A stretch of 24,045 nt of DNA from a virus: positions 1 through 24,045 of the IMG/VR virus record IMGVR_UViG_3300017769_000125; one strand, given 5' to 3'. This document shows positions 2,617 to 19,843 of this stretch, one piece after another. The notes beneath the pieces are model-generated. The model saw only the letters and a program-made list of their open reading frames with translations. It was not told the origin of the DNA and did no database searches. Position numbers and translations under genes: made by a program. Each line of letters opens with the position of its first letter. The first letter of the stretch is position 1.

Positions 2617-3378
2617 TCAGCCGTACCTCTTGATTGCGAGCGCCCAGCGTAGAGCAACGCTATTACAGCCAAGCTTGCGTTGCACACGCTGATCAAAAAC
2701 CTTGACGACGATACCGTCCGTCGGCCACTGCTCGAAGATTGCACCACGCAACCAGCGTTGATGCAGTTCTCGCACCTCCACCAATGACGTGCAAACGATC
2801 GTGTCTGGCGTGTCAAAGCCCATTTTGCCACGCGCCACCTGGCTGCAGGACTCACTGCTAAGCGAGTTGACCAGCTTATAAGCCGAGAACAGCAAGCCAT
2901 CACCACTAGGCCGCGTCCTGCGAAGCGCTGCAGCAGCTCTCTGCTGCGATGTAAGGCGCTCTACCCCATACAGCTCACCATGGACCTCTGTAAGGCCCTC
3001 AGACTCCTCCCTGAGCACCTTGGGCACGCTTGGGACCAAATCAACCACAGGCATCGCCGAACGGCCGCTGCGGGTCCATGCGGCCTCCAATGCGCCGTTG
3101 CGATACCGCAAGCCAATGGCGCAACCGTCAATCTTGGGCTGCACCACAACGGCAGTGCTCTGCGGCAACGTCATCCACCATGCCTCAGGCATCTGGTTGT
3201 CAAGGCTTAACAGATGAGTGCCGCCACCAGGCACCTTCAACTCTGGTGCATGTGGCGCAAGCGCTGCGAGCTTAGCTTTCTTCATATCGAACTCAAGATC
3301 AGTCACTTGGGCATGTCCTTGCCGATACGCGGAATCCAGAGCGCATAATTCGGCACGCAAGTCCTTGATAGATGTCAT
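2617..3378 (-). CDS. Minimal NAD+-dependent DNA ligase-like adenylation protein
   Basis: A 253-residue protein with LigA-type features. A domain-Ia-like segment (VTDLEFDMKKAKLAAL, residues 25-40, like the ISDxEYD segment of LigA) precedes SLDNQ (58-62). The nucleotidyl-transfer motif KIDG follows, with candidate nucleophile Lys82, then HGELYG (133-138), TDGIVVKV (220-227) and the motif-V region ALRWALAIKR (242-251). It ends right there. The OB-fold, zinc finger, helix-hairpin-helix and BRCT domains of full LigA (~670 residues) are absent. Adenylation (AMP transfer from NAD+ to Lys82) is therefore plausible, but complete nick sealing is uncertain without an OB-fold. The next gene is a zinc ribbon but is not the LigA type. 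The ATG at 3378 is the only good start. Confidence 0.85.
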   Translation of the reverse strand: MTSIKDLRAELCALDSAYRQGHAQVTDLEFDMKKAKLAALAPHAPELKVPGGGTHLLSLDNQMPEAWWMTLPQSTAVVVQPKIDGCAIGLRYRNGALEAAWTRSGRSAMPVVDLVPSVPKVLREESEGLTEVHGELYGVERLTSQQRAAAALRRTRPSGDGLLFSAYKLVNSLSSESCSQVARGKMGFDTPDTIVCTSLVEVRELHQRWLRGAIFEQWPTDGIVVKVFDQRVQRKLGCNSVALRWALAIKRYG

Positions 3379-3421: not shown

Positions 3422-3451
3422 ACTATACCCTCTATCGCAGCGCTCGAACAA
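3422..3451 (-). promoter_or_regulatory. Possible promoter for the ligase-like gene
   Basis: On the minus strand TTGTTC (complement of 3446-3451) and TATAGT (complement of 3422-3427) are 18 bases apart, with a predicted start near 3413 and a ~35-base leader. The -10 is good but the -35 is weak, and it lies partly inside the end of the preceding gene. Confidence 0.3.
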
Positions 3452-4250
3452 TGTTCCGCTCAAGAAAGCGGTCAGCCCGATTGACGACGAACTTCTCCAC
3501 GGTGCCGTAGTAATCAAAGACCTTTGGCACGGTCGGATGAGACTTGGCGTAGGTGAACAACAGCTGCAGGTTGTCCTTGCCTTTAATCCTGTAGATGCCA
3601 GAGCCAATGCGATCAAACAAAGAATTTTTAGTTGGAGGGGCTTGTATAGCGCCTCCCATATAAATCTGTCCAGCGCTATTTTTTGAAAAATAACGGAAAT
3701 TATTATTCCTGTTAAAGCCAACGAGCCTTCGTGGCTGGCTGCCAAAACGAAGGCTGGGGTTGAGATCAGATTTTTTTATTGACCGCATAAGCGATGAGTT
3801 CAAGCCAGACCAGACTTTGGAGTATTCACCCTGCGAAACGTTGCCGTAGCGATTCTTGGCCAGGTTTTCTTTTACAGGAACTGGATACGGCCGTTCTGTG
3901 TTGACACCAGCTCGTTCAACAAACCGTGAAAACTTAGTGAGGTAAGCCCTGTCATCTTCAACGCTCATCGCGACAGGAGCGAGGTAGTTGGCAGGAGCGT
4001 TGCCCTTGCCGACATCAGAGCGGACACTTAGCTCCACTTCAAAGTTTGACTTGACCTTGTAGGAGATGCTCTTGGTCGTCAGGGGCACTGGGTTATCGAA
4101 GACAGCCTTCATGTATGCAGGCAAGTGCTTCTTAGCCAGCTGGAAGCCGATCTCCTTGACAGTCTGCTTGGCGGCGAAGGGCAACTGGCGACGCTGAAGG
4201 ATGTCGAGTCGCTTGACGACCTTGTCGATGTTGTGGGTGACAGAGGCCAT
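3432..4250 (-). CDS. Minor tail protein Z-like (GPZ-like) virion protein, tentative
   Basis: This 272-residue protein starts at the ATG at 4250 (MASVTHNIDKVVKRLDILQR). A GTG at 4304 would add 18 hydrophobic residues but would cut into the iteron region. The first ~70 residues (QRRQLPFAAKQTVKEIGFQL, then FDNPVPLTTKSISY) resemble the prophage minor tail protein Z family. In that family a helix with 'A...A.N.TA..' is followed by 'FDxPTPxTxxSxxV'. The remainder is basic with many Asn/Arg/Phe. Such proteins act in tail completion. It is unusual to find one alone between the candidate origin and a ligase-like gene, so the assignment is tentative. No catalytic motif is visible. Confidence 0.6.
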   Translation of the reverse strand: MASVTHNIDKVVKRLDILQRRQLPFAAKQTVKEIGFQLAKKHLPAYMKAVFDNPVPLTTKSISYKVKSNFEVELSVRSDVGKGNAPANYLAPVAMSVEDDRAYLTKFSRFVERAGVNTERPYPVPVKENLAKNRYGNVSQGEYSKVWSGLNSSLMRSIKKSDLNPSLRFGSQPRRLVGFNRNNNFRYFSKNSAGQIYMGGAIQAPPTKNSLFDRIGSGIYRIKGKDNLQLLFTYAKSHPTVPKVFDYYGTVEKFVVNRADRFLERNIVRALR

Positions 4251-4308
4251 AAAACCAAGCGTGAGCAGGTCTGAGACAAGGGTAGCCAAAAGGCTTGAAA
4301 ACACTGAT

Positions 4309-4592
4309 GTTACGCCAGTTACGCACCGTTACGGTAGGCGTAACACCCGAAATCCACTGCAGCGCAGGGGTGTTGCGTTAGTTAGTTACGAAGTTACACT
4401 GATATATATATATAGTATATATAAGGGATATATCTATTTCTAGTAGTACATACATACTTACTACCTCTTACTTATTTATATATATATCTCTGTCCTCAGA
4501 AAACGTAACAACGTAACGGTTTTCCGACATCCCTTGCGCCCCAACGTGTTACAGCGTTTCCGGCGACGTAACAGGGCGTCACTTTTGTTACG
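4309..4592. repeat. GTTACG iteron cluster around AT-rich core: candidate replication origin
   Basis: This covers the 343-base gap between genes. Twelve copies of GTTAC(G/A) occur in 284 bases. Direct copies start at 4309, 4318, 4328, 4385, 4393, 4548 and 4587. Inverted copies (CGTAAC) start at 4339, 4504, 4512 and 4567 (eleven listed plus the near copy GTTGCG at 4372). Neighbouring copies are mostly 8-11 or ~20 bases apart, about one or two helical turns. Between the two clusters lies an almost pure A/T stretch (about 4399-4490, TATATA runs), a good unwinding element. An imperfect inverted repeat CGTAACACC/GGTGTTGCG (4339-4347 and 4370-4378) lies in the left cluster. The flanking gene encodes a P4-alpha-like primase-helicase, a family that binds such iterons. 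Confidence 0.65.
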
Positions 4593-4593
4593 G

Positions 4594-7089
4594 TCAGAGC
4601 GTTTCGAGGCTCAATCGGACTGATCTGGTGGTGTTACCGGCACCCGTGAAGCGCTGCACCCCGCCCACCCCTGCGCCTGGAAGCCGCTTCAACACCGTCG
4701 CCCATGCATTGACCCATGGAGTGTCCTGCAGGATGGCCGTCAAGGCCTTGTGAGTGTTGCTGACGTACAGGCAGCGCTCCTGTGGCTCGACCTTCAGCCC
4801 ATGCCTCCCTAAGGCACGAACAGCTCCGCCAGTATCGAGGTCAAAGTCATTGGTCGATAGTGAAGCGATTTCAACCAGCTCACCAATAGATCGCGTAACG
4901 CTTTTACCTTCGCCTTCAATTTTAAGCTGATGTTGAAGAATATGTTGAATGCATTTTTTCTCATCGGCTATCTCTGTTGTTTCGCGATATGGCTCCCAAT
5001 CATTGCTATCAATTAGCATATTTGCCTGTGCCTCGGTAATCACTTCAGAGGACTGAAGCGCCCATGCCCCAGCCAGCAGTGTTCCATATTGATCACCAAG
5101 GCGCTGGCTATTGAACTTATCAGCAGCAACGCGAATCAATGTTTTAGCGCTCTCTCTGATAACAGGAATCAATTTAATAGTCCGATGGATAAGGCCGCGG
5201 CCGAAGTCTGTTGTGATGTATTTTTCAAGATCTGCGTCTAACTTATCCCAATGCTTTTGACGTTCCTCTTTGTCAATTTCATTTGGACTTTTAAGGGTCA
5301 ACTGAGCAAAACGTGATCGATCGGCACCTTGCTTTAGGTGTGTTGCGATTGATGACATCATAAACATGCTCCGAACATGATACCGTGTCGCCTCACCCGT
5401 AGCGCTACCTTTTACAGCTGTTGCTTGTGATTCAGATGATGCAACACGAGCTAAGGCGAGTATATTTTGCATCCGTTGTTTATCCGCTACTTCATTTGAC
5501 TCTGCCTCATCAAAGACAACTGGTAAGGCGTCTGATTTCAATGATTGACGTATGCCAGCCTCTGTTGTATTGCCAGCAACTAGTAAGCACATGTCATTCA
5601 ATAATGGCGTAACAAAGCGATCAAGGATTGCTGATTTGCCAGAGCCTGCGGCTGCAGTAAGCCAGATATGAGGTCGCCATCTCAAGGCACCGCAGATAGG
5701 TGCCAGAACAATCCAGCCTGCAAGCAACTGTGATGATGCAGGGACTTCCCAGTTGAAATCTTCAGCGATAGCAAGAACCCTGAAGGCCTCCTCGTCTGGT
5801 AAAGGTTGACAGCTGCCATAGCCATGAAGCTTGGTCAGACGTTGATAGACGTAACGTGATTCAAAATTTTCAGTAACAGGATGGATTTTGTTGTCAGCAA
5901 TAATGTGATCACCGAGATGCAAGACAGTACGACCGTTATCCCACCAGCAGCCGCGGCCACGAATGATCTGAGGGTTATAGACGCCTTGCTCTGAGTTAGC
6001 TTCAAAAAGCATTGATGCAGCACGAACCCAGTCAACGGATGTTTTGCTGCCTGGTGCAAAGACTTCCCAAAAGCAAAGGGGAGCTAAGGCGACGAGATTT
6101 GTTGATGTATGTGCTGAGCGTGTCAGGCGTGTGACCTGACCCGTGCTGTGGGGCTGAAAGTACCAGCCATCAGCGGCATAACCGAGATATGTGAACTGTG
6201 ATCCGATCTCGACAGGTTGTGGCTCTTCTGGCTCTGGATCAGGCTGCGATGCAGCGACCAGGATGGATGGTGTTGGCGGTTCTGAGATATTGTCCTTGAG
6301 ATCAGCAAAGGCCTGCTCTGAGGTCCAAGAGGCATCAGCAAGATCCCAGCCCTGTTCTACGTTTGGCGGGGGCGTGACGATGCGGATGTCTTTGACGCCA
6401 AGTTCTTGTAACTTGACTGCGACTTGCTCCATGGCCTGCTGGCCAGCCTCATCAGCATCAGGCCATAGGACGATTTTGCGTCCGATTAGGGGTGAGAAGT
6501 CTGATTTATTGAAGGCCTTGCAGCCTGATGACCATGTTGTGGCGGTGTAGCGAGGAAAGAGGCGAGCGGCTGCATCGCATGCCTTCTCACCTTCACAGAT
6601 GATGACTGTGCCAGTGGTGGCACGGATCTTGCCAAGGTTCAGGAGAGGGCGAAGGCCTGGTGGTACGCCTGGCTTCCATTCATTGCCATCAAAAGCAAAG
6701 GGCCGGTAACGCTTGCCGGAGAAGCGTGCGACGACAAAGTTATCGTTGTAAATCCAGGTGTGCTCAGCGTTTGAGGTCGGCGGCTGAGGGCGATCTTGCA
6801 CAATGCCGAGATGGGCTTCAATTTTGCGTGCAGCATCAGAGAACTCCATTCCAGTCTTTCGCATAAGCATGTCCATGCCGTTGCCAGCACCACCAGAGTG
6901 GTTTTTACCGCCACATTTATTGCAAAACCAAGAGCCGTTGCCATCTTTGTCGTCGAAGCGATAGCGATCCTTGCCACCACAGAGTGGACAGCCTTGGTGT
7001 TTATCGGTGAGCTGTTCAGCGCTGAGGCCTGCAAGGGTGCCAAGAATTGAGGGCCAGTGCCCCCTGGCGAGATCTGTAATCTTCTTCAT
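4594..7089 (-). CDS. P4-alpha-like primase-helicase
   Basis: This 831-residue multidomain replication protein starts with a zinc ribbon at residues 34-59 (CPLCGGKDRYRF...WFCNKC). A TOPRIM domain follows at ~160-225, with catalytic-type Glu166 (CEGEKAC) and WPDADEAG at 209-216. After a Pro/Glu-rich linker (~275-295) comes an ATPase/helicase region with Walker A TAAAGSGKS (478-486), Walker B FDEAE (526-530) and an arginine-rich GADRSRF segment. The order Zn-TOPRIM-helicase is that of phage P4 alpha, whose C-terminal domain binds origin iterons. Here the gene ends two bases from the iteron cluster. The protein probably makes primers and unwinds DNA. The start ATG at 7089 overlaps the upstream stop (ATGA). 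Confidence 0.9.
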   Translation of the reverse strand: MKKITDLARGHWPSILGTLAGLSAEQLTDKHQGCPLCGGKDRYRFDDKDGNGSWFCNKCGGKNHSGGAGNGMDMLMRKTGMEFSDAARKIEAHLGIVQDRPQPPTSNAEHTWIYNDNFVVARFSGKRYRPFAFDGNEWKPGVPPGLRPLLNLGKIRATTGTVIICEGEKACDAAARLFPRYTATTWSSGCKAFNKSDFSPLIGRKIVLWPDADEAGQQAMEQVAVKLQELGVKDIRIVTPPPNVEQGWDLADASWTSEQAFADLKDNISEPPTPSILVAASQPDPEPEEPQPVEIGSQFTYLGYAADGWYFQPHSTGQVTRLTRSAHTSTNLVALAPLCFWEVFAPGSKTSVDWVRAASMLFEANSEQGVYNPQIIRGRGCWWDNGRTVLHLGDHIIADNKIHPVTENFESRYVYQRLTKLHGYGSCQPLPDEEAFRVLAIAEDFNWEVPASSQLLAGWIVLAPICGALRWRPHIWLTAAAGSGKSAILDRFVTPLLNDMCLLVAGNTTEAGIRQSLKSDALPVVFDEAESNEVADKQRMQNILALARVASSESQATAVKGSATGEATRYHVRSMFMMSSIATHLKQGADRSRFAQLTLKSPNEIDKEERQKHWDKLDADLEKYITTDFGRGLIHRTIKLIPVIRESAKTLIRVAADKFNSQRLGDQYGTLLAGAWALQSSEVITEAQANMLIDSNDWEPYRETTEIADEKKCIQHILQHQLKIEGEGKSVTRSIGELVEIASLSTNDFDLDTGGAVRALGRHGLKVEPQERCLYVSNTHKALTAILQDTPWVNAWATVLKRLPGAGVGGVQRFTGAGNTTRSVRLSLETL

Positions 7090-7536: not shown

Positions 7537-7887
7537 TTATCCAAGAATGCGCAAGGCGTCTTGCAAGGATCTTGCGATGGCGCTGATGCCACCGGCCTTG
7601 CTGACAGCTTTTAGCCAATAGCTTTGCGCTGCAGTGGGTTTGCCTGAAGGGGTCTTCACTTCGAGACTTACAAACTGGGCAATGGTGGTGCCCACCATGT
7701 CAGGTGTAATTGTGACTGTCTTCCAGCCAACCAGATCAGCTGACCCTTTAGCGAGGCCAAACTGAACTGGGCGACCAGTGCGGGGATCAGGTAACTGGCC
7801 GACTTGATTCCTAAATAAGCGCACATCATCGCGAGTGCCAAGGCCCAGGCGAATCTCCTGCTGGATTTTGGTCTCGACATTTGCCAT
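7537..7887 (-). CDS. VRR-NUC domain nuclease
   Basis: The 116-residue protein matches the stand-alone VRR-NUC family (PD-(D/E)XK superfamily) along its whole length. It has the N-terminal helix with Glu (ETKIQQEI, residues 5-12), LFRNQVGQL (24-32) and FGLAKGSADLVGW (43-55) with the catalytic-type Asp51. EVKT follows (76-79, Glu76 and Lys78), then a Gln-containing helix (TAAQSYWLKAV, Gln88) and the GGISAIARS end. Phage members are thought to cut branched or structured DNA. The ATG at 7887 heads the minus-strand replication operon. No strong promoter was seen in front of it; TTGAGC with TATGCT 19 bases apart is the best, weak, candidate. Confidence 0.88.
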   Translation of the reverse strand: MANVETKIQQEIRLGLGTRDDVRLFRNQVGQLPDPRTGRPVQFGLAKGSADLVGWKTVTITPDMVGTTIAQFVSLEVKTPSGKPTAAQSYWLKAVSKAGGISAIARSLQDALRILG

Positions 7888-7906
7888 GCAATCAGCATAA
7901 GGGGGG

Positions 7907-7936
7907 TTGACGGATCCAGCTCAAGTGCTCTATGAC
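7907..7936 (+). promoter_or_regulatory. Possible promoter for the 8125-9273 unit
   Basis: TTGACG (7907-7912) and TATGAC (7931-7936) are separated by 18 bases. Transcription would start near 7943, giving a leader of about 180 bases before the ATG at 8125. The -35 matches five of six, the -10 four of six. Confidence 0.4.
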
Positions 7937-7940
7937 GCTC

Positions 7941-8103
7941 ATGCGGGCTTAAGCCTGCTCAACTCCGAGCACCGCATCTCTTTGCTTAGCGCATCGGTTC
8001 ACGTCCAATTGTTTTTACGCTGCTCTGTACTTATCTTTTCTCTTTAGAGCAATTCCCCGCCTTCTTCTGCCTTCGTCCGCCGGTCACGACTAAACCGGCT
8101 TTT
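7941..8103 (+). promoter_or_regulatory. Structured 5' leader with terminator-like hairpin
   Basis: At the start of the predicted leader, ATGCGG (7941-7946) pairs with CCGCAT (7972-7977). Inside, TGCTC (7956-7960) pairs with GAGCA (7967-7971) and a small GCTTAAGC palindrome sits at 7947-7954, forming a compact three-way-junction shape. Near the end, GCCGGT (8079-8084) pairs with ACCGGC (8094-8099) and is followed by four T, like a weak terminator, 21 bases before the start codon. The arrangement resembles a leader with an attenuator. No known riboswitch class was recognised. Confidence 0.35.
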
Positions 8104-8124
8104 ACAAATTATTGGAGTTAATCC

Positions 8125-8769
8125 ATGTCAATCCGCACTTTGCAAGTGACCGTAAATGGCACTGCAGGTCTTCTTTGCTCAAACGTTGCCTATTCAGACC
8201 CTCTTGGCGAATTCCAGCCAATGAAGGCATTTTTTACAGACAAAAAAGGTAAAGCCAAGACCGAAGGAGTTCACCGAGCAGTCCGAACTCTTGATTGGCT
8301 TTTCAGTGGTTATTGGCGCAATGAGGGCACTGTTGCGGTCGATGAGGCTGAAAATGCTGTCGGCTTTGAGGACTTTGCTGATCCCTACCTTCCAGGCGCT
8401 AATTTTCAGCGTTGCTTAAGGAATGCTGCTACTAAGTGGAAGCTAGGCAAGGACACCCTCCGCGCAATTGTTGTCACTAACAATCCAGACATCGATTACG
8501 ACGGTCCCAAAGATGCTGTTGAGATGTTTAACAGCCGTTCTCCCAAGTTTCAGCTTTGCAGCTTCACCGGTCGGGGTGTTTGGATCAATCGCCTTTACAT
8601 TCCCGATTGGTCAGCTCAGTTTGAATTGACATTGGATGACGAGATCATGGGGACTGATCAACTTCGGAGGATCGCAAACATGGCTGGCAAGTCTGAAGGC
8701 CTTGGGACTTGGCGGCCGAGGTATGGACGTTTTCAGGTGACTAATATCTCTGAAGTCGAGGAGGTTTGA
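8125..8769 (+). CDS. Phage protein of unknown function, terminal WRPRYGRF motif
   Basis: The 214-residue protein has the layout of a widespread unannotated phage family. The N-terminus has a '..LLCSNVAYSDPLG..' strand, and a middle segment reads YLPGANFQRCLRNAATKWKL. YDGPKDAVEMF comes about two-thirds along, and the C-terminus ends in a Gly-rich helix followed by GLGTWRPRYGRFQV. I know this pattern from many siphophages, but its function is not established to my knowledge. Its strand-rich character with a late Gly-rich loop is compatible with a nucleic-acid-binding fold, which is speculation. GGAG lies eight bases before the ATG. A structured leader precedes it, and the next gene starts 3 bases after its stop. 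Confidence 0.75.
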   Translation: MSIRTLQVTVNGTAGLLCSNVAYSDPLGEFQPMKAFFTDKKGKAKTEGVHRAVRTLDWLFSGYWRNEGTVAVDEAENAVGFEDFADPYLPGANFQRCLRNAATKWKLGKDTLRAIVVTNNPDIDYDGPKDAVEMFNSRSPKFQLCSFTGRGVWINRLYIPDWSAQFELTLDDEIMGTDQLRRIANMAGKSEGLGTWRPRYGRFQVTNISEVEEV

Positions 8770-8772
8770 TTT

Positions 8773-9273
8773 ATGGCAAATCGAAAGCCAAAGGATCTGC
8801 CTCTTGAGGTCGCTGGCATTGATTGGCGAGCCTTGAAGAAGGGCGACAGCATTACTGCTGAGAAAGTCAACGAGATGTGGGACATTCTTTTCGCTCAAAA
8901 CCGCAAGAAGGATCAGCAGTTTGTCTCGGTCAATGTCAAGGAGTGGCTTGATTCCGCTCTCAAGTCAATTGGCAAAGAGATGGTGCTTCGCGAGTCCAAG
9001 GGCATACTTATTGTTCTCACGGATGAGCAGGCAGTTGGCTATTTGGAAGCACAAGCTAATCAAGGCTTGAGGAAGCACAAGAACAACACTAGGAGGATGT
9101 TCACTGCTATTGATTCAAGCAACTTAAGCCAGCATCAACGTGACCAGTTGAATTCAAATCAGGCGAAACATGCTTTGATTTCCAGTTCTGCTGAGGGCGC
9201 TAAAAAGCAGGCTATGTCTTTAATCAAGCAGGGAGCAAAGCTTCCAAAGCTGAAACCACCAGAAGAGGATTGA
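8773..9273 (+). CDS. Hypothetical protein, partner of the upstream gene
   Basis: The 166-residue basic protein is without recognised domains. The first half contains a strand-helix pattern (FVSVNVKEWLDSALKSIGKE, then KGILIVLTDEQAVGYLEAQ). The second half is a Lys/Asn/Gln-rich helical region (LRKHKNNTRRMF...) ending in a Pro/Lys tail, KLPKLKPPEED. A strong AGGAGG eight bases before the ATG, inside the end of the upstream gene, and a 3-base gap make co-expression near certain. The stop codon is followed after two bases by the first of the twin hairpin elements. Basic composition suggests nucleic-acid contact (inference). Confidence 0.7.
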   Translation: MANRKPKDLPLEVAGIDWRALKKGDSITAEKVNEMWDILFAQNRKKDQQFVSVNVKEWLDSALKSIGKEMVLRESKGILIVLTDEQAVGYLEAQANQGLRKHKNNTRRMFTAIDSSNLSQHQRDQLNSNQAKHALISSSAEGAKKQAMSLIKQGAKLPKLKPPEED

Positions 9274-9275
9274 TG

Positions 9276-9439
9276 CCTGGGCAATGTCAATAAGCCCCAG
9301 GACGTCGAAGTGATGCGACTCAGGACCCCCTGATGCTTCTCACTTCAATTCTATGCACCTTCTTGTCGTGCAGTGCCCTTCTGTTCTTTGCGACGCCACT
9401 TAACGCAATCGCTTGCTGGTTCCACGATCAAGAACCAGC
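9276..9439 (+). ncRNA. Two-hairpin structured element, copy A
   Basis: Hairpin 1 has arms CCTGGG (9276-9281) and CCCAGG (9296-9301) with the 14-base loop CAATGTCAATAAGC. Hairpin 2 has arms GCTGGTTC (9415-9422) and GAACCAGC (9432-9439) with the 9-base loop CACGATCAA. Between them are GAAGTGA/TCACTTC (9307-9313/9340-9346) enclosing TCAGG/CCTGA (9320-9324/9329-9333), and TGCAC/GTGCA (9354-9358/9368-9372). Hairpin 2 is preceded by ATCGCTT and followed by a ten-base spacer and eight T (9449-9456). Copy B repeats both loops with compensated stems. The coding strand of the RNA, if any, is not proven; plus is assumed from the genes upstream. Confidence 0.6.
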
Positions 9440-9455
9440 TCATAAGTATTTTTTT

Positions 9456-9576
9456 TCTAGGCAACGTCAATAAGTCCTAGACCGTTGCTTCTTTCGGCGT
9501 TTCGGCCCAAAACAGCTCTATTCTGCCTGCAGCGCCTCCTAGCCATCGCTTTCCAGTTCCACGATTAAGAACTGGA
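9456..9576 (+). ncRNA. Two-hairpin structured element, copy B
   Basis: Hairpin 1 has arms TCTAGG (9456-9461) and CCTAGA (9476-9481) with loop CAACGTCAATAAGT. Hairpin 2 has arms TCCAGTTC (9552-9559) and GAACTGGA (9569-9576) with loop CACGATTAA, preceded by ATCGCTT as in copy A. Compared with copy A, two of six pairs in hairpin 1 and three of eight in hairpin 2 differ, each by a complete base-pair swap, while the loops are nearly identical. The spacer between hairpins is shorter (70 against 113 bases) and different. Together the copies fill the 305-base gap between two convergent genes. Confidence 0.6.
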
Positions 9577-9578
9577 CC

Positions 9579-10943
9579 TCAATACTTTCTCCCATAGAAG
9601 ATCTTGTAAGCCCAGCCGGGCTTGTAGCCTTTCTTTTTGGCGAGTGCGAGAAGTTCAGGCAGGGTTCGCGCCTTGCCTTGTTCTTTGCGTTTTTCGCGGC
9701 GCTCAATTGCGTCTTGCCGGCGCATTTCTTTGAGTTCGCCTTCGCGTTGTGTTAGCTGACGCTTTGGTTTAACCGGGAAGATAAAGCCACAACATGGACA
9801 GGCGGGTTGTGGCTTGAAGGCAGCAAAGCATTGTGGACATTGCCGCACTGACGGTGCAGGCTCATCGTTTCTCTTGCGTTTTTTGCTGTCAAGCGACCAA
9901 TCCCGGAGGTCATCGACGAAACCATGCCTAACAGTACTGCCGACGTGGTCAAGAACAATTGCGATCTTGCCCGCCTGCGGTCTGAGGATCCTGCCGACTT
10001 GTTGGAGGTAGAGAGATTCTGATTGGGTCGGGCGGAGCAGGATTGCACAAGAGACTGCTGGGACATCGGTTCCTTCAGAGACGACATCAACGGAGCAAAG
10101 AATTTGCGTTCGGCCATCAGCCAGCCCTGAAATTGCATCGTCACGCTCTTCCATTGGCATATCGCCTGTGACGAGCCTGGCGCGATAGCCTGCAGATTGA
10201 AATGATTGGCAGACAGATTTGGCGTGAGCTACTGAGCAGCAGAAAGCAATAGCAGGTAAACCATCAGCGCGTAGCCTGAAAGTATGAACGGCAGAACCAG
10301 TAATTGTGGGGCGATCCATCGCCTCAGAAAGCTGATCATTGGCGTAGTCACCTGCTCTTGTTTTTACCTTGCTTAGGTCGGCTAGGACAGGTGGTGCGAA
10401 AACACGATGAGGTGATAAGAACCCAGACTCGACCAGCTCTGCGACGGAAGGTCCTGACACTAGGGCCGAGAACCTTAATCCAAGCCCTTCGCCGGACAGA
10501 CGACATGGCGTTGCGGTGACGCCGATATGAATAGCGCCCGAAAAATGGTTGAGAATTTTGTCCCATGAACCGGCGACAGCATGGTGCGCTTCATCGATTA
10601 TCACCAGAGCGGGGTCAATTTTGATTTTGTCTAGGCGACGTACCAAGGTTTGTACAGAAGCGATTTGAATCTGGCCGTAGGTAGGCGGGAAGCCTGCAGC
10701 AATGATCCCGTGATCGACGCCAATGGCCTTGAGTTTGTTTGATGCTTGAGTGATTAGCTCACGCCTGTGGACAAGGATGAGGGTTGAGTTTCCTTTGGCT
10801 GCAGCGGCTTTGGCGATTTCTACAAAGACCACGGTCTTGCCGGCGCCTGTTGGGAGGACAAGAAGCGCTGATCTCTTACCACTGCGCACTACAGCACGCA
10901 AGCCCTCAATGGCTGCTACTTGATACTGCCTAAGACGGACCAT
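9579..10943 (-). CDS. Superfamily 2 DEAD/DEAH-box helicase (UvsW/SSL2-like)
   Basis: A 454-residue SF2 helicase: Q-motif-like RLRQYQ at the start, Walker A PTGAGKT (31-37), motif Ia LILVHRREL (55-63), DEAH (117-120), TAT (143-145), and in the second RecA domain SEGTDVPAVSCAILL (289-303) and QQVGRILR (314-321). After the helicase core come a four-cysteine zinc ribbon (CPQC 369-372, CPCC 382-385) and a very basic tail (~395-454). The family unwinds branched DNA such as D-loops and is common beside phage recombination genes. It is transcribed divergently from the exonuclease gene, 56 bases apart. The start is the ATG at 10943. Confidence 0.92.
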   Translation of the reverse strand: MVRLRQYQVAAIEGLRAVVRSGKRSALLVLPTGAGKTVVFVEIAKAAAAKGNSTLILVHRRELITQASNKLKAIGVDHGIIAAGFPPTYGQIQIASVQTLVRRLDKIKIDPALVIIDEAHHAVAGSWDKILNHFSGAIHIGVTATPCRLSGEGLGLRFSALVSGPSVAELVESGFLSPHRVFAPPVLADLSKVKTRAGDYANDQLSEAMDRPTITGSAVHTFRLRADGLPAIAFCCSVAHAKSVCQSFQSAGYRARLVTGDMPMEERDDAISGLADGRTQILCSVDVVSEGTDVPAVSCAILLRPTQSESLYLQQVGRILRPQAGKIAIVLDHVGSTVRHGFVDDLRDWSLDSKKRKRNDEPAPSVRQCPQCFAAFKPQPACPCCGFIFPVKPKRQLTQREGELKEMRRQDAIERREKRKEQGKARTLPELLALAKKKGYKPGWAYKIFYGRKY

Positions 10944-10947
10944 GGAG

Positions 10948-10976
10948 TTGCATGAAGCAGGTCTAGGCTATAGGAT
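10948..10976 (+). promoter_or_regulatory. Possible promoter for the recombination operon
   Basis: In the 56-base divergent gap, TTGCAT (10948-10953) and TAGGAT (10971-10976) are 17 bases apart on the plus strand. Transcription would begin near 10982, 18 bases before the ATG at 11000. Both elements are imperfect, but the spacing and position are right. Confidence 0.35.
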
Positions 10977-10999
10977 GCGACAGTCAAGCACAAGACCTT

Positions 11000-11836
11000 A
11001 TGCCTATTCGGGACTTATCCAATGCCCGCTACCACTCTCACTCGGCGATTTCAAATTCAGACTTGGGAGCTGCTGCGCAGTCTGGCCAAGCTTTTTACGA
11101 CAAAAAATTTGGCCCAAAACGTGAAAGCACTAAGGCTTTCGATGTTGGAACTTGCTTTCATTCTCTTGTGTTACCTGGCGAGCAGCTTTCACAAGTTGCA
11201 GCTGTTCGCCCAGAAGGTCTTGATGGTCGCACTAAAGCCGGCAAGGCGTTTGCAGCAGAGAATGCAGACAAGATCATTTTGAGCACTGCAGAAAAGCAAC
11301 AGCTTGATCTAATGATTGAAAGCGTTCAGAGACACCCTGCTGCTTCTGAGCTGCTTAAGTTAAAAGGCAAGGCTGAGGTCAGTATGTTTGGGGTTGACCC
11401 TGAGACTGAACTTCAAATAAAGGCTAGACCTGATTATTTATTGGATGACAGGTCGCTGATCCTCGACATCAAGACGACTGCTGACGCATCGCCGCGTGGC
11501 TTCCAACGTAGCTTTGCTAACTATCGGTATTGGGTGCAAAGCGCTTGGTACTTATGGATTGCTGAGATGGTGACAGGCAGACGGCCTGATGCTTTTATTT
11601 TTATCTGCGTAGAAAAACAGCGGCCGTATCACACGGCTGTGTACATCGCAGATGACCAGTCAATTGAGCTGGGTATTCAGGAAGCACGCAGGAATCTTAT
11701 GGACATTGCCAAGTGGCAAAACTGCAAAATGTTTCCTGGCTATAGCAGTAAGGCAGAGATGATGTCTTTGCCGCAGTGGATGCTTCCAAAAGAAGACGGC
11801 ACTCCTGCTGACCACCAACCTATTGAGCTTTACTGA
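11000..11836 (+). CDS. RecE/exodeoxyribonuclease VIII-like PD-(D/E)XK nuclease
   Basis: This 278-residue protein has the signature of the RecE C-terminal/DUF3799 exonuclease family. It starts with YHSHSAISNSDL (11-22), followed by FDVGTCFHSLVLPG (47-60) with His54, then a helical region. KARPDYLL (141-148) carries Asp145, ILDIKTT (154-160) has the Asp156/Lys158 core, and YRYWVQSAWYL (175-185) includes Gln180. Such enzymes resect one strand of duplex ends to give 3' tails for an annealing protein. A RecT-like gene lies three genes downstream, making a RecE/RecT-type pair. The stop overlaps the next start (TGATG). Confidence 0.9.
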   Translation: MPIRDLSNARYHSHSAISNSDLGAAAQSGQAFYDKKFGPKRESTKAFDVGTCFHSLVLPGEQLSQVAAVRPEGLDGRTKAGKAFAAENADKIILSTAEKQQLDLMIESVQRHPAASELLKLKGKAEVSMFGVDPETELQIKARPDYLLDDRSLILDIKTTADASPRGFQRSFANYRYWVQSAWYLWIAEMVTGRRPDAFIFICVEKQRPYHTAVYIADDQSIELGIQEARRNLMDIAKWQNCKMFPGYSSKAEMMSLPQWMLPKEDGTPADHQPIELY

Positions 11837-12087
11837 TGGAGAAAGTTACTGAGTTCGAATTGATGCAGGCTCTTTGGGACTGCAGTTGCTATGTAAGAGA
11901 TCTTCCTACAAAAGAAGAAACTCGTGCAATTAAGGATGTAGTCGGTGAACTCATGTCCAGGTGGATTGCGCAACAGCATTTAAGCAATGAGGAAGGTTTA
12001 GATCTTTTTAAAAAAGTTCTTGAGCCTGGACCTCTTTGCTTAGCTGCAAAAAAAGCATTGCGCAGCAGATACTTTGACAAAAGTTAA
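11836..12087 (+). CDS. Small helical hypothetical protein
   Basis: The 83-residue product begins MEKVTEFELMQALWDCSCYV. It is mainly helical and acidic in the first part, with a basic C-terminus (KKALRSRYFDKS). Its ATG overlaps the exonuclease stop by one base, and the next small gene starts directly after its TAA. No domain was recognised. The position between exonuclease and annealing protein suggests an accessory role in the recombination operon, without direct evidence. Confidence 0.6.
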   Translation: MEKVTEFELMQALWDCSCYVRDLPTKEETRAIKDVVGELMSRWIAQQHLSNEEGLDLFKKVLEPGPLCLAAKKALRSRYFDKS

Positions 12088-12255
12088 ATGCCCGGCGCAC
12101 AGTATGGGACCACGCAGCCCTTAGACAACATCGCTGCAGCCAAGGCCCGTGCTAAGGCTGCATTGAATGAGAAAAACCCAAAGCTCACAAGACTTGAGCG
12201 TGCTTTTTACGAGCTTTACAAGCGACACGGGCATCCTCCCCCCAAAGAGGTGTAA
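12088..12255 (+). CDS. Small basic protein, 55 residues
   Basis: A short gene begins with ATG immediately after the TAA of the upstream gene and ends at the TAA at 12253-12255. The product starts MPGAQYGTTQPLDN, has an Ala/Lys-rich helix (IAAAKARAKAALNE) and then a basic amphipathic part (RLERAFYELYKRHGH) ending in PPPKEV. The abutting stop/start and the sensible amphipathic pattern support it. No family was recognised. It is too short for a 60-residue ORF cut-off. Confidence 0.55.
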   Translation: MPGAQYGTTQPLDNIAAAKARAKAALNEKNPKLTRLERAFYELYKRHGHPPPKEV

Positions 12256-12287
12256 GTCCCGAACTGTTCACACTATTTTTTTTACTC

Positions 12288-12536
12288 ATGTCTCGACCGA
12301 CTGGCACTAAGAACAAAACACGCATTGAGATGACTATGTCACCTTGGTACGCCGAGAAGCTTAAGGAGCTTCGTATTGACTCTGGCTTCGAAACAAATCA
12401 AGCGTTTGCAAATTGGCTGCTGAAAAACACTGTTCAAATTCTTTGCGGACAGCGCGATCCAGGCAGTGAGAGACTGAACGACTTGCGTTTACGAATGCAG
12501 CAAGCACTTCCTGCACCTGAGGCGATCAATGAGTGA
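12288..12536 (+). CDS. Small basic hypothetical protein
   Basis: The 82-residue protein starts MSRPTGTKNKTRIEMTMSPW. The first residues (RPTGTKNK) resemble the GRPxGSKNK stretch common at the start of phage DNA-binding proteins. After a short strand (TRIEMTMS) come two predicted helices (WYAEKLKELRIDSGF, QAFANWLLKNTVQIL), a layout compatible with a ribbon-helix-helix-like unit. Its end overlaps the RecT-like gene start by 8 bases (ATGAGTGA), so the two are coupled. A DNA-binding role is likely but unproven. Confidence 0.6.
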   Translation: MSRPTGTKNKTRIEMTMSPWYAEKLKELRIDSGFETNQAFANWLLKNTVQILCGQRDPGSERLNDLRLRMQQALPAPEAINE

Positions 12537-13188
12537 TCAATCAGCGCTGACGACAACGTCCGTGAAATCGGTTTACAGCAGCATCCAGTCATTTGAGTCT
12601 GCTCAGCGGATGGCCAAATCGCTCGCCGAAAGCGACATTGTGCCGACTTTGTATCGGGGCAAACTTGGCAACTGCATTGTGGCGATGGAAATCGCTAATC
12701 GAATGGGCATGTCAACTGTTCAGGTGATGCAAAACCTGAACATCATTCATGGTCGACCCTCATGGAGCAGTCAGTTCATTATTGGCTTAATCCAGGGCTG
12801 CGGCAGGTTTCTCGACTTCGATTATGTTGAGGCTGCTGACTCGTGTCAGTGCGTTGCTACGGCAAAAACCACTGGCAAGCAGGTCTCAGGGCCAAAGATC
12901 ACCATGGACATGGCTAAAAGGGAGGGCTGGACGAAAAACACCAAATGGAGCACGATGCCGCAAACTATGCTGCGGTATCGAGCTGCAAGCGCGTTCGGTC
13001 GCTTTCACATTCCTGATTTGATCCTTGGCATTCAAAGCGTTGAGGAGAACGAGGTGATTGATGCAGATGTTGAAGTAATTCAACCACCAGCTGCACAATC
13101 AGTGGCTGATGACCTGAACCAAAAGCTTGCCTCCATTAAAACCGAACCTGAACAGGTGCAGGATGACTTCGACGATTTTCTTGAATGA
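12529..13188 (+). CDS. RecT-family single-strand annealing protein
   Basis: The 219-residue protein carries the RecT core. AQRMAKSLAESDIVPTLYRG (about residues 26-45) leads into NCIVAMEIANRMGMSTVQVM (48-67) and NLNIIHGRPSWSSQFIIGLI (69-88), the best conserved block of this family. TMDMAKREGWTKNTKWSTMP and the MLRYRAASAFGRF helix (about 144-156) follow. The C-terminal ~50 residues are acidic and probably flexible. The family coats single strands and promotes annealing and strand invasion. It pairs functionally with the exonuclease at 11000. It is slightly short against typical RecT (~270). The ATG at 12529 overlaps the previous gene. Confidence 0.85.
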   Translation: MSDQSALTTTSVKSVYSSIQSFESAQRMAKSLAESDIVPTLYRGKLGNCIVAMEIANRMGMSTVQVMQNLNIIHGRPSWSSQFIIGLIQGCGRFLDFDYVEAADSCQCVATAKTTGKQVSGPKITMDMAKREGWTKNTKWSTMPQTMLRYRAASAFGRFHIPDLILGIQSVEENEVIDADVEVIQPPAAQSVADDLNQKLASIKTEPEQVQDDFDDFLE

Positions 13189-17999: not shown

Positions 18000-18415
18000 T
18001 CCTCCTGCTGCTTTTGTTTGTAGCCGCTCCAGCAGCAGCCGTTCCAGTAGTCCCAAACTTTTCTCAAGGCGTACTTAGTTCAACAACGACCACCAAAACT
18101 AAAGTCACAGAGGTCATTAACTGCTACGAGTACCGCACTGGCTACGAATACTCAGTCAGTGGCACCAACATTCAGAGTAATGGTGCTATTGCTCCAATGG
18201 ACTTGACGACAACGTCAAACACCATTCAAGGCGTCACCAGTCGATGGACCAGCCTTGACGCTGTCAAAAAACCAACCTGGACGATTGTCAATCAAGGAGC
18301 CTCGTTCCAGTTTGTCGAGACCCTGAACGGCCCTGGTTTGGTGAACCACACACTCGTTAACCGTGACACGGACATCGAATCTATAACTGAAACGACAAGT
18401 ACCTTTACGCAATGA
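17996..18415 (+). CDS. Secreted hypothetical protein
   Basis: 139 residues with an N-terminal hydrophobic segment (MILLLLLFVAAPAAAVPVVP), likely a signal peptide cut after AAA. The mature chain has a single Cys (VINCYEYRTGYEYSVSG), many Thr/Ser/Asn, and a regular strand-like pattern ending TETTSTFTQ. It overlaps both neighbours by 4 bases and is clearly part of the secreted-protein operon. No domain was recognised. Beta-rich fold and envelope location are inferences from composition. Confidence 0.68.
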   Translation: MILLLLLFVAAPAAAVPVVPNFSQGVLSSTTTTKTKVTEVINCYEYRTGYEYSVSGTNIQSNGAIAPMDLTTTSNTIQGVTSRWTSLDAVKKPTWTIVNQGASFQFVETLNGPGLVNHTLVNRDTDIESITETTSTFTQ

Positions 18416-19140
18416 AGCGAGTCATAGCAACGCTTTTGCTGCTTGCGAGCCCTGCACAAGCACAAGTCAGCAGTACCGCCGCTCCAGTGGCTAATAGTTC
18501 TGGATCGGTCACAAATCAAGCTGTGCAGGTTGTGCCATCACGCACATTCGGCTTCAACTACTCAGGAATATCCTGCCAAGGTGCAACGCTCCACATCAAT
18601 CCCTTCCTAAGTACAACTACTAGTTGGGCACATCCCTATGAGAACTATTACTCAGAACCGGTTTATGACCAGCTCGATCTGGTTGGCTCGTTTGATCCGG
18701 AAGGTAATGCCGTCCCAGATGGCCAGCCCGATAATCCGGGCAATGTCCTTTACTATCGTCCAATCAGGACGGGTCAAAAAACTAATTACTCGATCAACGG
18801 CGGAATCACAGCCACAATATCGCTACCGCTTGACCGTTCCCACGTCAGAAGCTGTAGGAGAGCAGCTGAGAAACAGGTACTTTTACTCGACGCCCAGTTG
18901 GCTGACAAGCGACTTAACTACGAAATAGCCAGACTTAAAAACTGTGCCTCATTAATGAAGGAGGGAATCTCGTTCCACCCGGACAGCCCTTACAGCAAAA
19001 TCTGTGCAGACGTAGTCCTTCAAAATCCGCCTGGCGTCATACCGCCTCACGTACACAAAATTATTTACGAAGAGAACGCTGAAACTTCACCCGCTCAGCA
19101 ACAGACTCAGGACGAGGCTTCTTCCCCAGAATCGCCTTGA
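18412..19140 (+). CDS. Secreted hypothetical protein with cysteine pairs
   Basis: 242 residues. A signal peptide (MKRVIATLLLLASPAQA) is followed by STAAPVANSSGSVTNQAVQV, a phrase I know from secreted marine cyanophage proteins, and then GISCQGATLHINPF. A helix (about residues 143-175, CRRAAEKQVLLLDAQLADKR) and further cysteines (Cys 53, 143, 172, 193) suggest disulphides. The C-terminal tail (QQQTQDEASSPESP) is disordered. Its last 80 bases are antisense to the 3' end of the gene at 19061-19843. Possibly part of the virion or the infected cell envelope; function unknown. Confidence 0.7.
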   Translation: MKRVIATLLLLASPAQAQVSSTAAPVANSSGSVTNQAVQVVPSRTFGFNYSGISCQGATLHINPFLSTTTSWAHPYENYYSEPVYDQLDLVGSFDPEGNAVPDGQPDNPGNVLYYRPIRTGQKTNYSINGGITATISLPLDRSHVRSCRRAAEKQVLLLDAQLADKRLNYEIARLKNCASLMKEGISFHPDSPYSKICADVVLQNPPGVIPPHVHKIIYEENAETSPAQQQTQDEASSPESP

Positions 19141-19843
19141 CCTTTTTGACCACTTTCTTCACCGTAGGCTTGATCAACTTCAATGCATAATCTCCAAGCG
19201 GTTTAGCCACAATGGCTGACGTTGCAGCCGTGGCAGCAATAGCTGCTGTAGACAACGCAACAGGAGCAGGCGGCAGGTAATTATCGATAATCCTTGCTAC
19301 AGGCAGTGGTTCGTACAGCGTGACACACTCAGTACCAACACGCTCGTAACCAGTCACGACAGCAGTGCCTTGCTTGCCCTTCGCTCCAATAGGTATTGCA
19401 TCGGGTGGTGGGCATGGCAGTAGTTCGTTATCTATAGGGTCATCAGGCAACAAGTCTGATACCGATGGAAGGGTCACCGTCGGCTGGACTGCTTCACCAG
19501 CCGATTTTTTTTCCTCCTTTTTCTTTGCCTCAGGCTCTTCTGGTGGCTTTGGCAGTCTTGCCGCTCCATACGTCAACGTTCCAGGCGTATAGTCGATCGG
19601 CTTGTATGACGGCATTTGACCGCCGCAGACTGTGATGATCCCTTTTGGATCTGTGTTGTAGATCTCCTTGTCGCCTGCCGCAGAATTTCTGGTCTGCACA
19701 CAGCCCGGAATATCAGCAACAGGAAAACCGATTTGTAGCGTGATCGGCGGTTCAACCGGGATACTCTGAGGAGGCATGGCTCGCCAGGCCGGGATTTCCG
19801 GCACTTGCACTGCGCGAACACCAATCTCAGGGATTTCTGGCAT
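19061..19843 (-). CDS. Proline-rich membrane-associated virion-like protein
   Basis: 260 residues. The N-terminal part is proline-rich (VPEIPAWRAMPPQSIPVEPP, then ITLQIGFPVADIPGC). The middle is a disordered Pro/Glu/Lys stretch (PKPPEEPEAKKKEEKKS). A central Cys-containing domain follows, then an Ala-rich hydrophobic segment (about 196-212, STAAIAATAATSAIVA) and a very basic tail (KPTVKKVVKKVKAILGKK). I recall this N-terminal phrase in marine cyanophage proteins of unknown function. The start ATG at 19843 shares the bases CATG with the plus-strand gene at 19842. The 3' end overlaps the gene at 18412-19140 antisense by 80 bases. Confidence 0.7.
   Translation of the reverse strand: MPEIPEIGVRAVQVPEIPAWRAMPPQSIPVEPPITLQIGFPVADIPGCVQTRNSAAGDKEIYNTDPKGIITVCGGQMPSYKPIDYTPGTLTYGAARLPKPPEEPEAKKKEEKKSAGEAVQPTVTLPSVSDLLPDDPIDNELLPCPPPDAIPIGAKGKQGTAVVTGYERVGTECVTLYEPLPVARIIDNYLPPAPVALSTAAIAATAATSAIVAKPLGDYALKLIKPTVKKVVKKVKAILGKKPRPESVAERVKFQRSLRK

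Follow-up and report, generated by a model that had tools for sequence, protein, structure and literature searches.

An array of short repeats (iterons) at positions 4309-4592 of the DNA analysed here is, with high probability, a phage replication origin, and the adjoining rep gene (7089-4594, minus strand) would encode the cognate initiator that reads these iterons by the mechanism proposed below. The argument is built on sequence and on analogy to characterized replicons. The first-pass annotation had suggested an origin with its own initiator at this place. That suggestion is supported and strengthened because the layout recurs 3' of rep in most close relatives, because the iteron word co-varies with a C-terminal residue of Rep, and because Arsenophonus plasmids carry the same helicase as their sole recognisable replication gene.

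The window and its genes

The window, meaning the whole stretch of 24,045 nucleotides, is a 24-kb phage record. Genes for tail fibre, minor tail, decoration and assembly proteins bear out the earlier description of a phage with tail genes, and a cyanophage-type outer-membrane-like protein (Phage_OMP) is also encoded. A nucleotide search of the window against known phages gave no match, and Rfam and tRNA scans were empty. Genes in the vicinity of rep include the following.

3432..4304, minus strand: minor tail protein gene, downstream of the origin
7537..7887, minus strand: VRR-NUC nuclease gene, member of a conserved replication neighbourhood
9579..10943, minus strand: SF2 helicase gene, kept with rep in ~190 related loci

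The PHROG match of the minor tail protein begins at residue 19, so that its true start is probably the ATG at 4250. Genes for the VRR-NUC nuclease, the SF2 helicase, an exonuclease-VIII-like protein and RecT form a replication and recombination neighbourhood at 7537-13188, and the nuclease and SF2 helicase genes are found beside rep again in ~190 loci. Adjoining the tail gene beside the origin is a gene (2617-3378) whose product corresponds to an NAD-dependent DNA ligase reduced to its adenylation part; a ligase-adenylation gene occupies that place in L036, L037 and L306 as well.

A two-armed iteron array 3' of rep

Eleven GTTAC(G/A) sites in both orientations lie between the minor tail protein gene on one side and the rep stop codon on the other. 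Their spacings, in order, are 9, 10, 11, 46, 8, 111, 8, 36, 19 and 20. The array and its parts are as follows.

4309+, 4318+, 4328+, 4339-, 4385+, 4393+, 4504-, 4512-, 4548+, 4567-, 4587+: starts of the GTTACR sites, with strand
4309..4344: outer iterons of the rep-distal arm, GTTACG at 4309+, 4318+, 4328+ and 4339-; an equivalent arm is found family-wide
4385..4398, plus strand: inner iterons of the rep-distal arm, GTTACG at 4385 and GTTACA at 4393; this orientation is common to ~87% of family iterons in the core-nearest bins on that side
4399..4498: AT-rich core with TA repeats, likely DNA-unwinding element; the family AT maximum lies ~130 nt past the rep stop
4504..4517, minus strand: inner iterons of the rep-proximal arm, CGTAAC at 4504 and 4512, reversed relative to the distal inner pair; orientation kept in the family
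4548..4592: outer iterons of the rep-proximal arm at 4548+ (GTTACA), 4567- and 4587+, the last ending 1 base short of the rep stop codon

The earlier count of at least 11 copies in 284 bases proves right in both number and place. In 5,000 dinucleotide-preserving shuffles of the 290-base intergenic stretch, GTTACR occurs 1.0 times on average and at most 5 times, against the 11 sites observed, and GTTACG alone is present 9 times in that stretch (shuffle mean 0.6, maximum 5). Equal-length stretches in the rest of the 24-kb window hold at most 2 sites. The first-pass annotation had noted that a GTTACG equally frequent elsewhere would speak against an origin; instead, 9 of the 17 copies in the window fall within the array, which makes up 1.2% of the window's length. 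A chance cluster or compositional artefact, which has the AT richness and nothing else in its favour, is refuted by a shuffle maximum of 5 versus 11 and by recurrence at the same place in >100 loci, and its probability is negligible.

Two details of the earlier description need correction. The array does adjoin the Zn-TOPRIM-helicase gene, but it abuts the stop codon and not the start, as the gene runs from 7089 to 4594 on the minus strand. The core between the arms is indeed A/T-rich, but "almost pure" overstates a composition of ~80% A+T over 4405-4484, where one 20-base bin reaches 19 of 20.

Recurrence across homologous loci

Homologues were drawn from viral contigs, bacterial genomes, phages and plasmids. 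The 400 bases past rep were scored for over-represented 6- and 7-mers (log10 p < -6) in the 173 loci with enough sequence, close relatives included. An EM motif finder applied to single loci had drifted to low-complexity sequence, and k-mer over-representation with in-gene controls was used instead. A strong repeat array lies 3' of rep in 115 of the 173 loci. At the same strength, the controls yield 1 locus for any of up to three in-gene windows and 8 loci for windows further downstream. Loci with an array come mostly from uncultured phage contigs and cyanobacterial genomes, and also include Synechococcus phage S-H1, Bdellovibrio phage phi1422 and plasmids. In the complete phi1422 genome, 11 of 14 GGTAACA copies fall in the 330 bases past rep.

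Averaged over 101 dereplicated loci, the iterons form two groups, at ~0-100 and 160-290 bases past the rep stop, and the AT maximum lies between them with a median start 131 bases past the stop. The inner iterons are opposed: 3-19% are on the plus strand on the rep side (40-99) and 83-89% on the far side (160-199). The array of the window agrees with this average two-arm layout. The layout is not universal, since about one-third of homologous loci, mostly distant ones, have no detectable 3' array. Such arrays are missing in nearly all members of a clade of larger phages (L201-L238), with L231 as an exception.

Individual picocyanobacterial genomes can hold several rep loci with differing iterons. 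Synechococcus HJ21-Hayes has four (L121, L125, L135 and L152), and Cyanobium Cruz-8D1 has ~5-6, among them L130, L133, L147, L149 and L194. In S-H1 (L379), rep and its array are directly followed by a gene (18187-19236) whose annotation is DNA polymerase III beta subunit.

Rep is a mosaic protein

The domains of Rep are laid out as follows.

4594..7089, minus strand: rep, putative initiator/primase-helicase of 831 residues, with Zn ribbon, TOPRIM, AAA+ helicase and a putative C-terminal DNA-binding domain
6892..7002, minus strand: Zn_Ribbon_Prim, residues 30-66; by BLASTP, the sole part with clear homology to P4 alpha
6403..6609, minus strand: TOPRIM primase domain, residues 161-229; fold match to the DnaG RNA polymerase domain, Z ~14
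4972..5835, minus strand: AAA+ helicase domain, ~residues 419-706, with Walker A at ~482-486
4597..4965, minus strand: C-terminal domain, residues 709-831, helices and then a beta-hairpin (807-813/820-827); putative iteron-binding domain
4651..4653, minus strand: R813 codon; iteron base 6 varies with this residue

Pfam detects the primase zinc ribbon and the TOPRIM domain in Rep, and no match to DUF927 up to E 10. An AlphaFold model built with 92 relatives reaches a pLDDT of 92.8; with 11 sequences the model had been poor (pLDDT 56). The best VIA match to this model is the SCCmec Cch helicase 5dgk (model residues 293-830, Z 15.9 over 419 residues), but the rmsd of 7.0 is large and identity is 12%. 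MCM and DnaG chains follow, along with the SaPI5 primase-helicase 7ola (Z 13.9), and Foldseek also finds 7ola/7pds at E ~1e-5. As MCM chains score alike with the Rep helicase, these matches indicate a shared fold class and not a specific subfamily. At the level of sequence, neither 5dgk nor 7ola is among the profile matches up to E 1. A profile of the Rep C-terminal domain finds no match in PDB sequences up to E 10, and a Pfam search with the C-terminal alignment gave nothing convincing.

The first-pass annotation called the gene P4-alpha-like, which stands for the zinc-ribbon/TOPRIM end and fails for the helicase and C-terminal part. The zinc-ribbon region, the only part that BLASTP aligns, is 45% identical to P4 alpha over 88 residues, and both proteins have a TOPRIM domain. 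However, the D5_N, DUF5906 (SF3 helicase) and Pox_D5 C-terminal domains of alpha are undetected in the window Rep (E up to 10), and hhalign of P4 alpha against Rep assigns the helicase a probability of 16% and the C-terminal part one of 0.5%. The C-terminal structure of P4 alpha is not among the VIA matches listed, which is not evidence of absence. Because likeness to P4 alpha is limited to the zinc-ribbon end, the helicase folds like those of SCCmec Cch and SaPI5, and the C-terminal domain is unmatched, Rep is a mosaic of a P4-alpha/DnaG-type primase end, a Cch/SaPI-type helicase and a C-terminal domain without Pfam or solved-structure sequence match.

Rep is 1257-1262 residues long in L194 (Cyanobium Cruz-8D1) and L179 (a Lake Pavin cyanobacterial MAG). 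The extra length comes from ~350 residues inserted in frame within the Walker A motif (GTGK / ...VVTHN-T), a segment that resembles a homing-endonuclease-type intein.

Residue 813 tracks iteron base 6

Iteron words vary by lineage and include CGTAACA (window), CGTTACA, CGTAAGA, CGTGAGA, CGTGACA, CGTTAGG, CGTTAGA, CGTAATG, GGTAACA and others. In the register C1 G2 T3 n4 n5 n6 n7, positions 6-7 track residue 813, which is R in the window and precedes the near-invariant F814. Among the training loci, Y occurs with GA in 7 of 7, W with GG in 10 of 10, K with CA in 2 of 2 and R with CA in 41 of 46, and H occurs with GA or TG. As read from these sequences, the rule for base 6 is that R and K go with C, Y and W with G, and H with G or T. 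The five R exceptions (L034, L082, L195, L197 and L200) lack CA when read in the chosen register; at position 6 several of them carry a different base, and several are readable in another register. GTNAC words have C at position 6 whichever way they are read, so the result is independent of orientation. Among the columns of the C-terminal domain, 813 carries the most information about position 6 (z = 19, with the next column at 9).

The rule was then applied out of sample. It was written before the new loci were fetched, iterons were found blind to the protein, and the register was set by a fixed algorithm; loci were included if their array was significant and their C-terminal domain shared <90% identity with every domain in the training set. 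Position 6 is predicted correctly in 39 of 39 new loci, compared with a best of 33 and a mean of 23.8 in 20,000 permutations. Residue 813 is R in 28 of these loci, and the six H cases carry less weight because either G or T counted as correct for H. Among the new backgrounds are Y with CGTATGA (L294) and W with CGTATGG (L285, whose array is just below the significance cut).

A tree of helicase-domain sequences alone also shows the co-variation, with joint changes of residue and base on 11 of 307 branches (16 residue changes and 19 base changes), the best result of all C-terminal columns. The hypergeometric p of 6e-12 (4e-11 without merging R and K) is indicative, since the tree and parsimony are simple. 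A search on the tree for iteron positions 1, 4, 5 and 7 revealed no single residue comparable to 813.

In the AlphaFold model (pLDDT ~93), residue 813 ends one strand of the C-terminal hairpin. Together with the co-variation, this position suggests that residue 813 contacts base 6 of the iteron. A different account, in which the 3' end of rep and the origin are swapped as one recombination block and residue 813 travels with the iteron without touching the base, draws on the adjacency of domain and origin, which would be transferred jointly. Such a block would tie all C-terminal columns equally to the iteron, yet 813 far exceeds the others (z 19 vs 9; Jaccard 0.46 vs 0.31), and identical residue-base pairs recur in distant backgrounds, as in L183 and L189 from Burkholderiales-type hosts, cyanophage L005 and L294. 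Passive co-travel is thus unlikely.

Proposed mechanism and comparison with known systems

Direct contact between residue 813 and the iteron would fit a mechanism that may begin with binding of each iteron by the Rep C-terminal domain, base 6 being read through beta-hairpin residue 813. Rep would then assemble on both arms, probably as two hexamers facing opposite ways, and the assembled protein would melt the AT core. At the melted core, Rep would load its own AAA+ (MCM/Cch-like) helicase rings; its Zn-TOPRIM module would prime, and bidirectional replication would start. Layout and co-variation are seen directly in the sequences; binding, melting, loading and bidirectionality are proposed by analogy to work on SaPI, PICI and Cch2 (PMC6092414, PMC7581432).

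In SaPIs and PICIs, the origin is found immediately 3' of rep, its iterons set to either side of an AT-rich stretch, and the rep-ori of a Gram-negative PICI supports replication of a plasmid (PMC6092414). The likeness to the window is threefold. The origin directly follows the initiator gene (here stop 4594 and array 4309-4592; 115 of 173 homologues), two iteron sets surround an AT-rich region in both the window and the family average, and the initiator is of the hexameric-helicase type (PMC6092414, PMC7581432), judged here by fold match to the SaPI5 primase-helicase 7ola/7om0. The differences are that the replicons described here are in phages with their own structural genes, that a Zn-TOPRIM primase is fused to the helicase, and that neither DUF927 nor sequence similarity to solved SaPI/SCC helicases is detected. 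A PICI element is a satellite lacking structural genes of its own, whereas the window has tail, decoration and assembly genes.

The Cch2 C-terminal domain alone binds an iteron-bearing origin downstream of its gene (PMC7581432). SCCmec Cch/Cch2 is also the best structural match to the Rep helicase and C-terminal part, as described above. Cch elements differ in having separate small proteins and a separate primase-polymerase, whereas the primase of the window is on the helicase chain. Phage P4 has a similar arrangement directly 3' of alpha, where crr (P4 4291-4590) carries repeated 8-mers in both orientations. Unlike the window, in which no such element was found, P4 has a second, distant ori at 9086-9809.

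Plasmid iterons are often control sites as well. The array might accordingly be mainly regulatory, with Rep or another protein repressing or limiting transcription or copy number (operator or handcuffing) and replication starting elsewhere. A sigma-70-like match in the core (4442-4414) and the placement of the array between rep and the tail gene are in keeping with this role, but the count of promoter-like matches is no higher than in shuffles, and an array 3' of rep cannot be the operator of rep's own promoter. Moreover, two arms around an AT core match the published SaPI/PICI origin layout, and the iteron word co-varies with the primase-helicase itself. A mainly regulatory function is therefore improbable.

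GC skew, proposed earlier as a check on the origin, proved uninformative. The window, a partial genome, has a broad minimum at ~3-5.5 kb, and the complete relatives S-H1 and phi1422 have theirs away from the array; for this reason skew is not used as evidence.

Plasmid relatives

In Arsenophonus nasoniae plasmids of 8-12 kb, a Rep-type helicase is the sole recognisable replication gene, and 7-13 repeats lie 3' of the helicase gene. Their C-terminal ends do not align with the C-terminal domain of the window Rep. Three such elements (L356, L357 and L358) encode a protelomerase, an Rpn-family protein and Rep, and have the appearance of minimal linear plasmids or of N15-like remnants. The repeats they carry (GCATTAC, GGTTGTA and CTAACAA) go with a different C-terminal end.

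An Atlantibacter relative lies on a phage-plasmid of 19 kb that also carries ParA and a terminase-like gene. This relative combines residue K with GGTAACA, in agreement with the residue-813 rule. The presence of ParA in this relative, and the fact that centromeres too have repeated sites in both orientations, would be compatible with a site for partition or packaging (parS- or pac-like) to which another phage protein binds. Against that role, neither ParB nor ParA was found among the window genes scanned, the co-variation is with Rep's own C-terminal residue, and in those relatives with an array, it comes after rep and not after a par or terminase gene. A partition or packaging site is very improbable.

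An initiator code and its implications

Correspondence between initiator residues and iterons was known before from geminivirus Rep (PMC12548392), and co-variation of initiator and iterons from PLE (PMC8263062). In geminiviruses, the short iterons of closely related viruses differ, and variable residues in the iteron-related domain of the cognate Rep correspond to them (PMC12548392); geminiviruses are unrelated ssDNA viruses of eukaryotes with an unrelated rolling-circle Rep. In PLE RepA, origin iterons and the initiator DNA-binding domain vary jointly between elements (PMC8263062), but RepA has a RepA_N domain and ~30-bp iterons, and whole domains are swapped in place of a single-residue correspondence. 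The nuclease Odn of the attacker ICP1 mimics the PLE RepA domain, which provides a reason for diversification (PMC8263062). No report of a residue-iteron correspondence for this Rep phage family was found among the open-licence papers searched.

A broader proposal, somewhat less probable than an even chance, is that a readable initiator code extends family-wide, one hairpin residue setting one base of the origin repeat. Lineages would have switched repeatedly among R, Y, W and H. Related elements in one cell (four loci in HJ21-Hayes, six in Cruz-8D1) would thereby keep separate, non-cross-reacting origins, possibly attacked by origin-mimicking rivals as in the case of PLE and Odn.

How an initiator recognises its own origin, and how this recognition changes without killing the replicon, is seldom visible from sequence. 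About 150 natural initiator-origin pairs here yield a simple, testable rule. The residue-813 rule predicts the outcome of a single-residue change. Given a Rep sequence, it allows the origin of an uncultured phage to be located, and it points to compatibility groups among phages, plasmids and integrated elements. This origin layout, which has been described as exclusive to PICIs, is also present in phages, in a phage-plasmid and probably in small linear plasmids, and this wider occurrence bears on the origin of PICI replicons.
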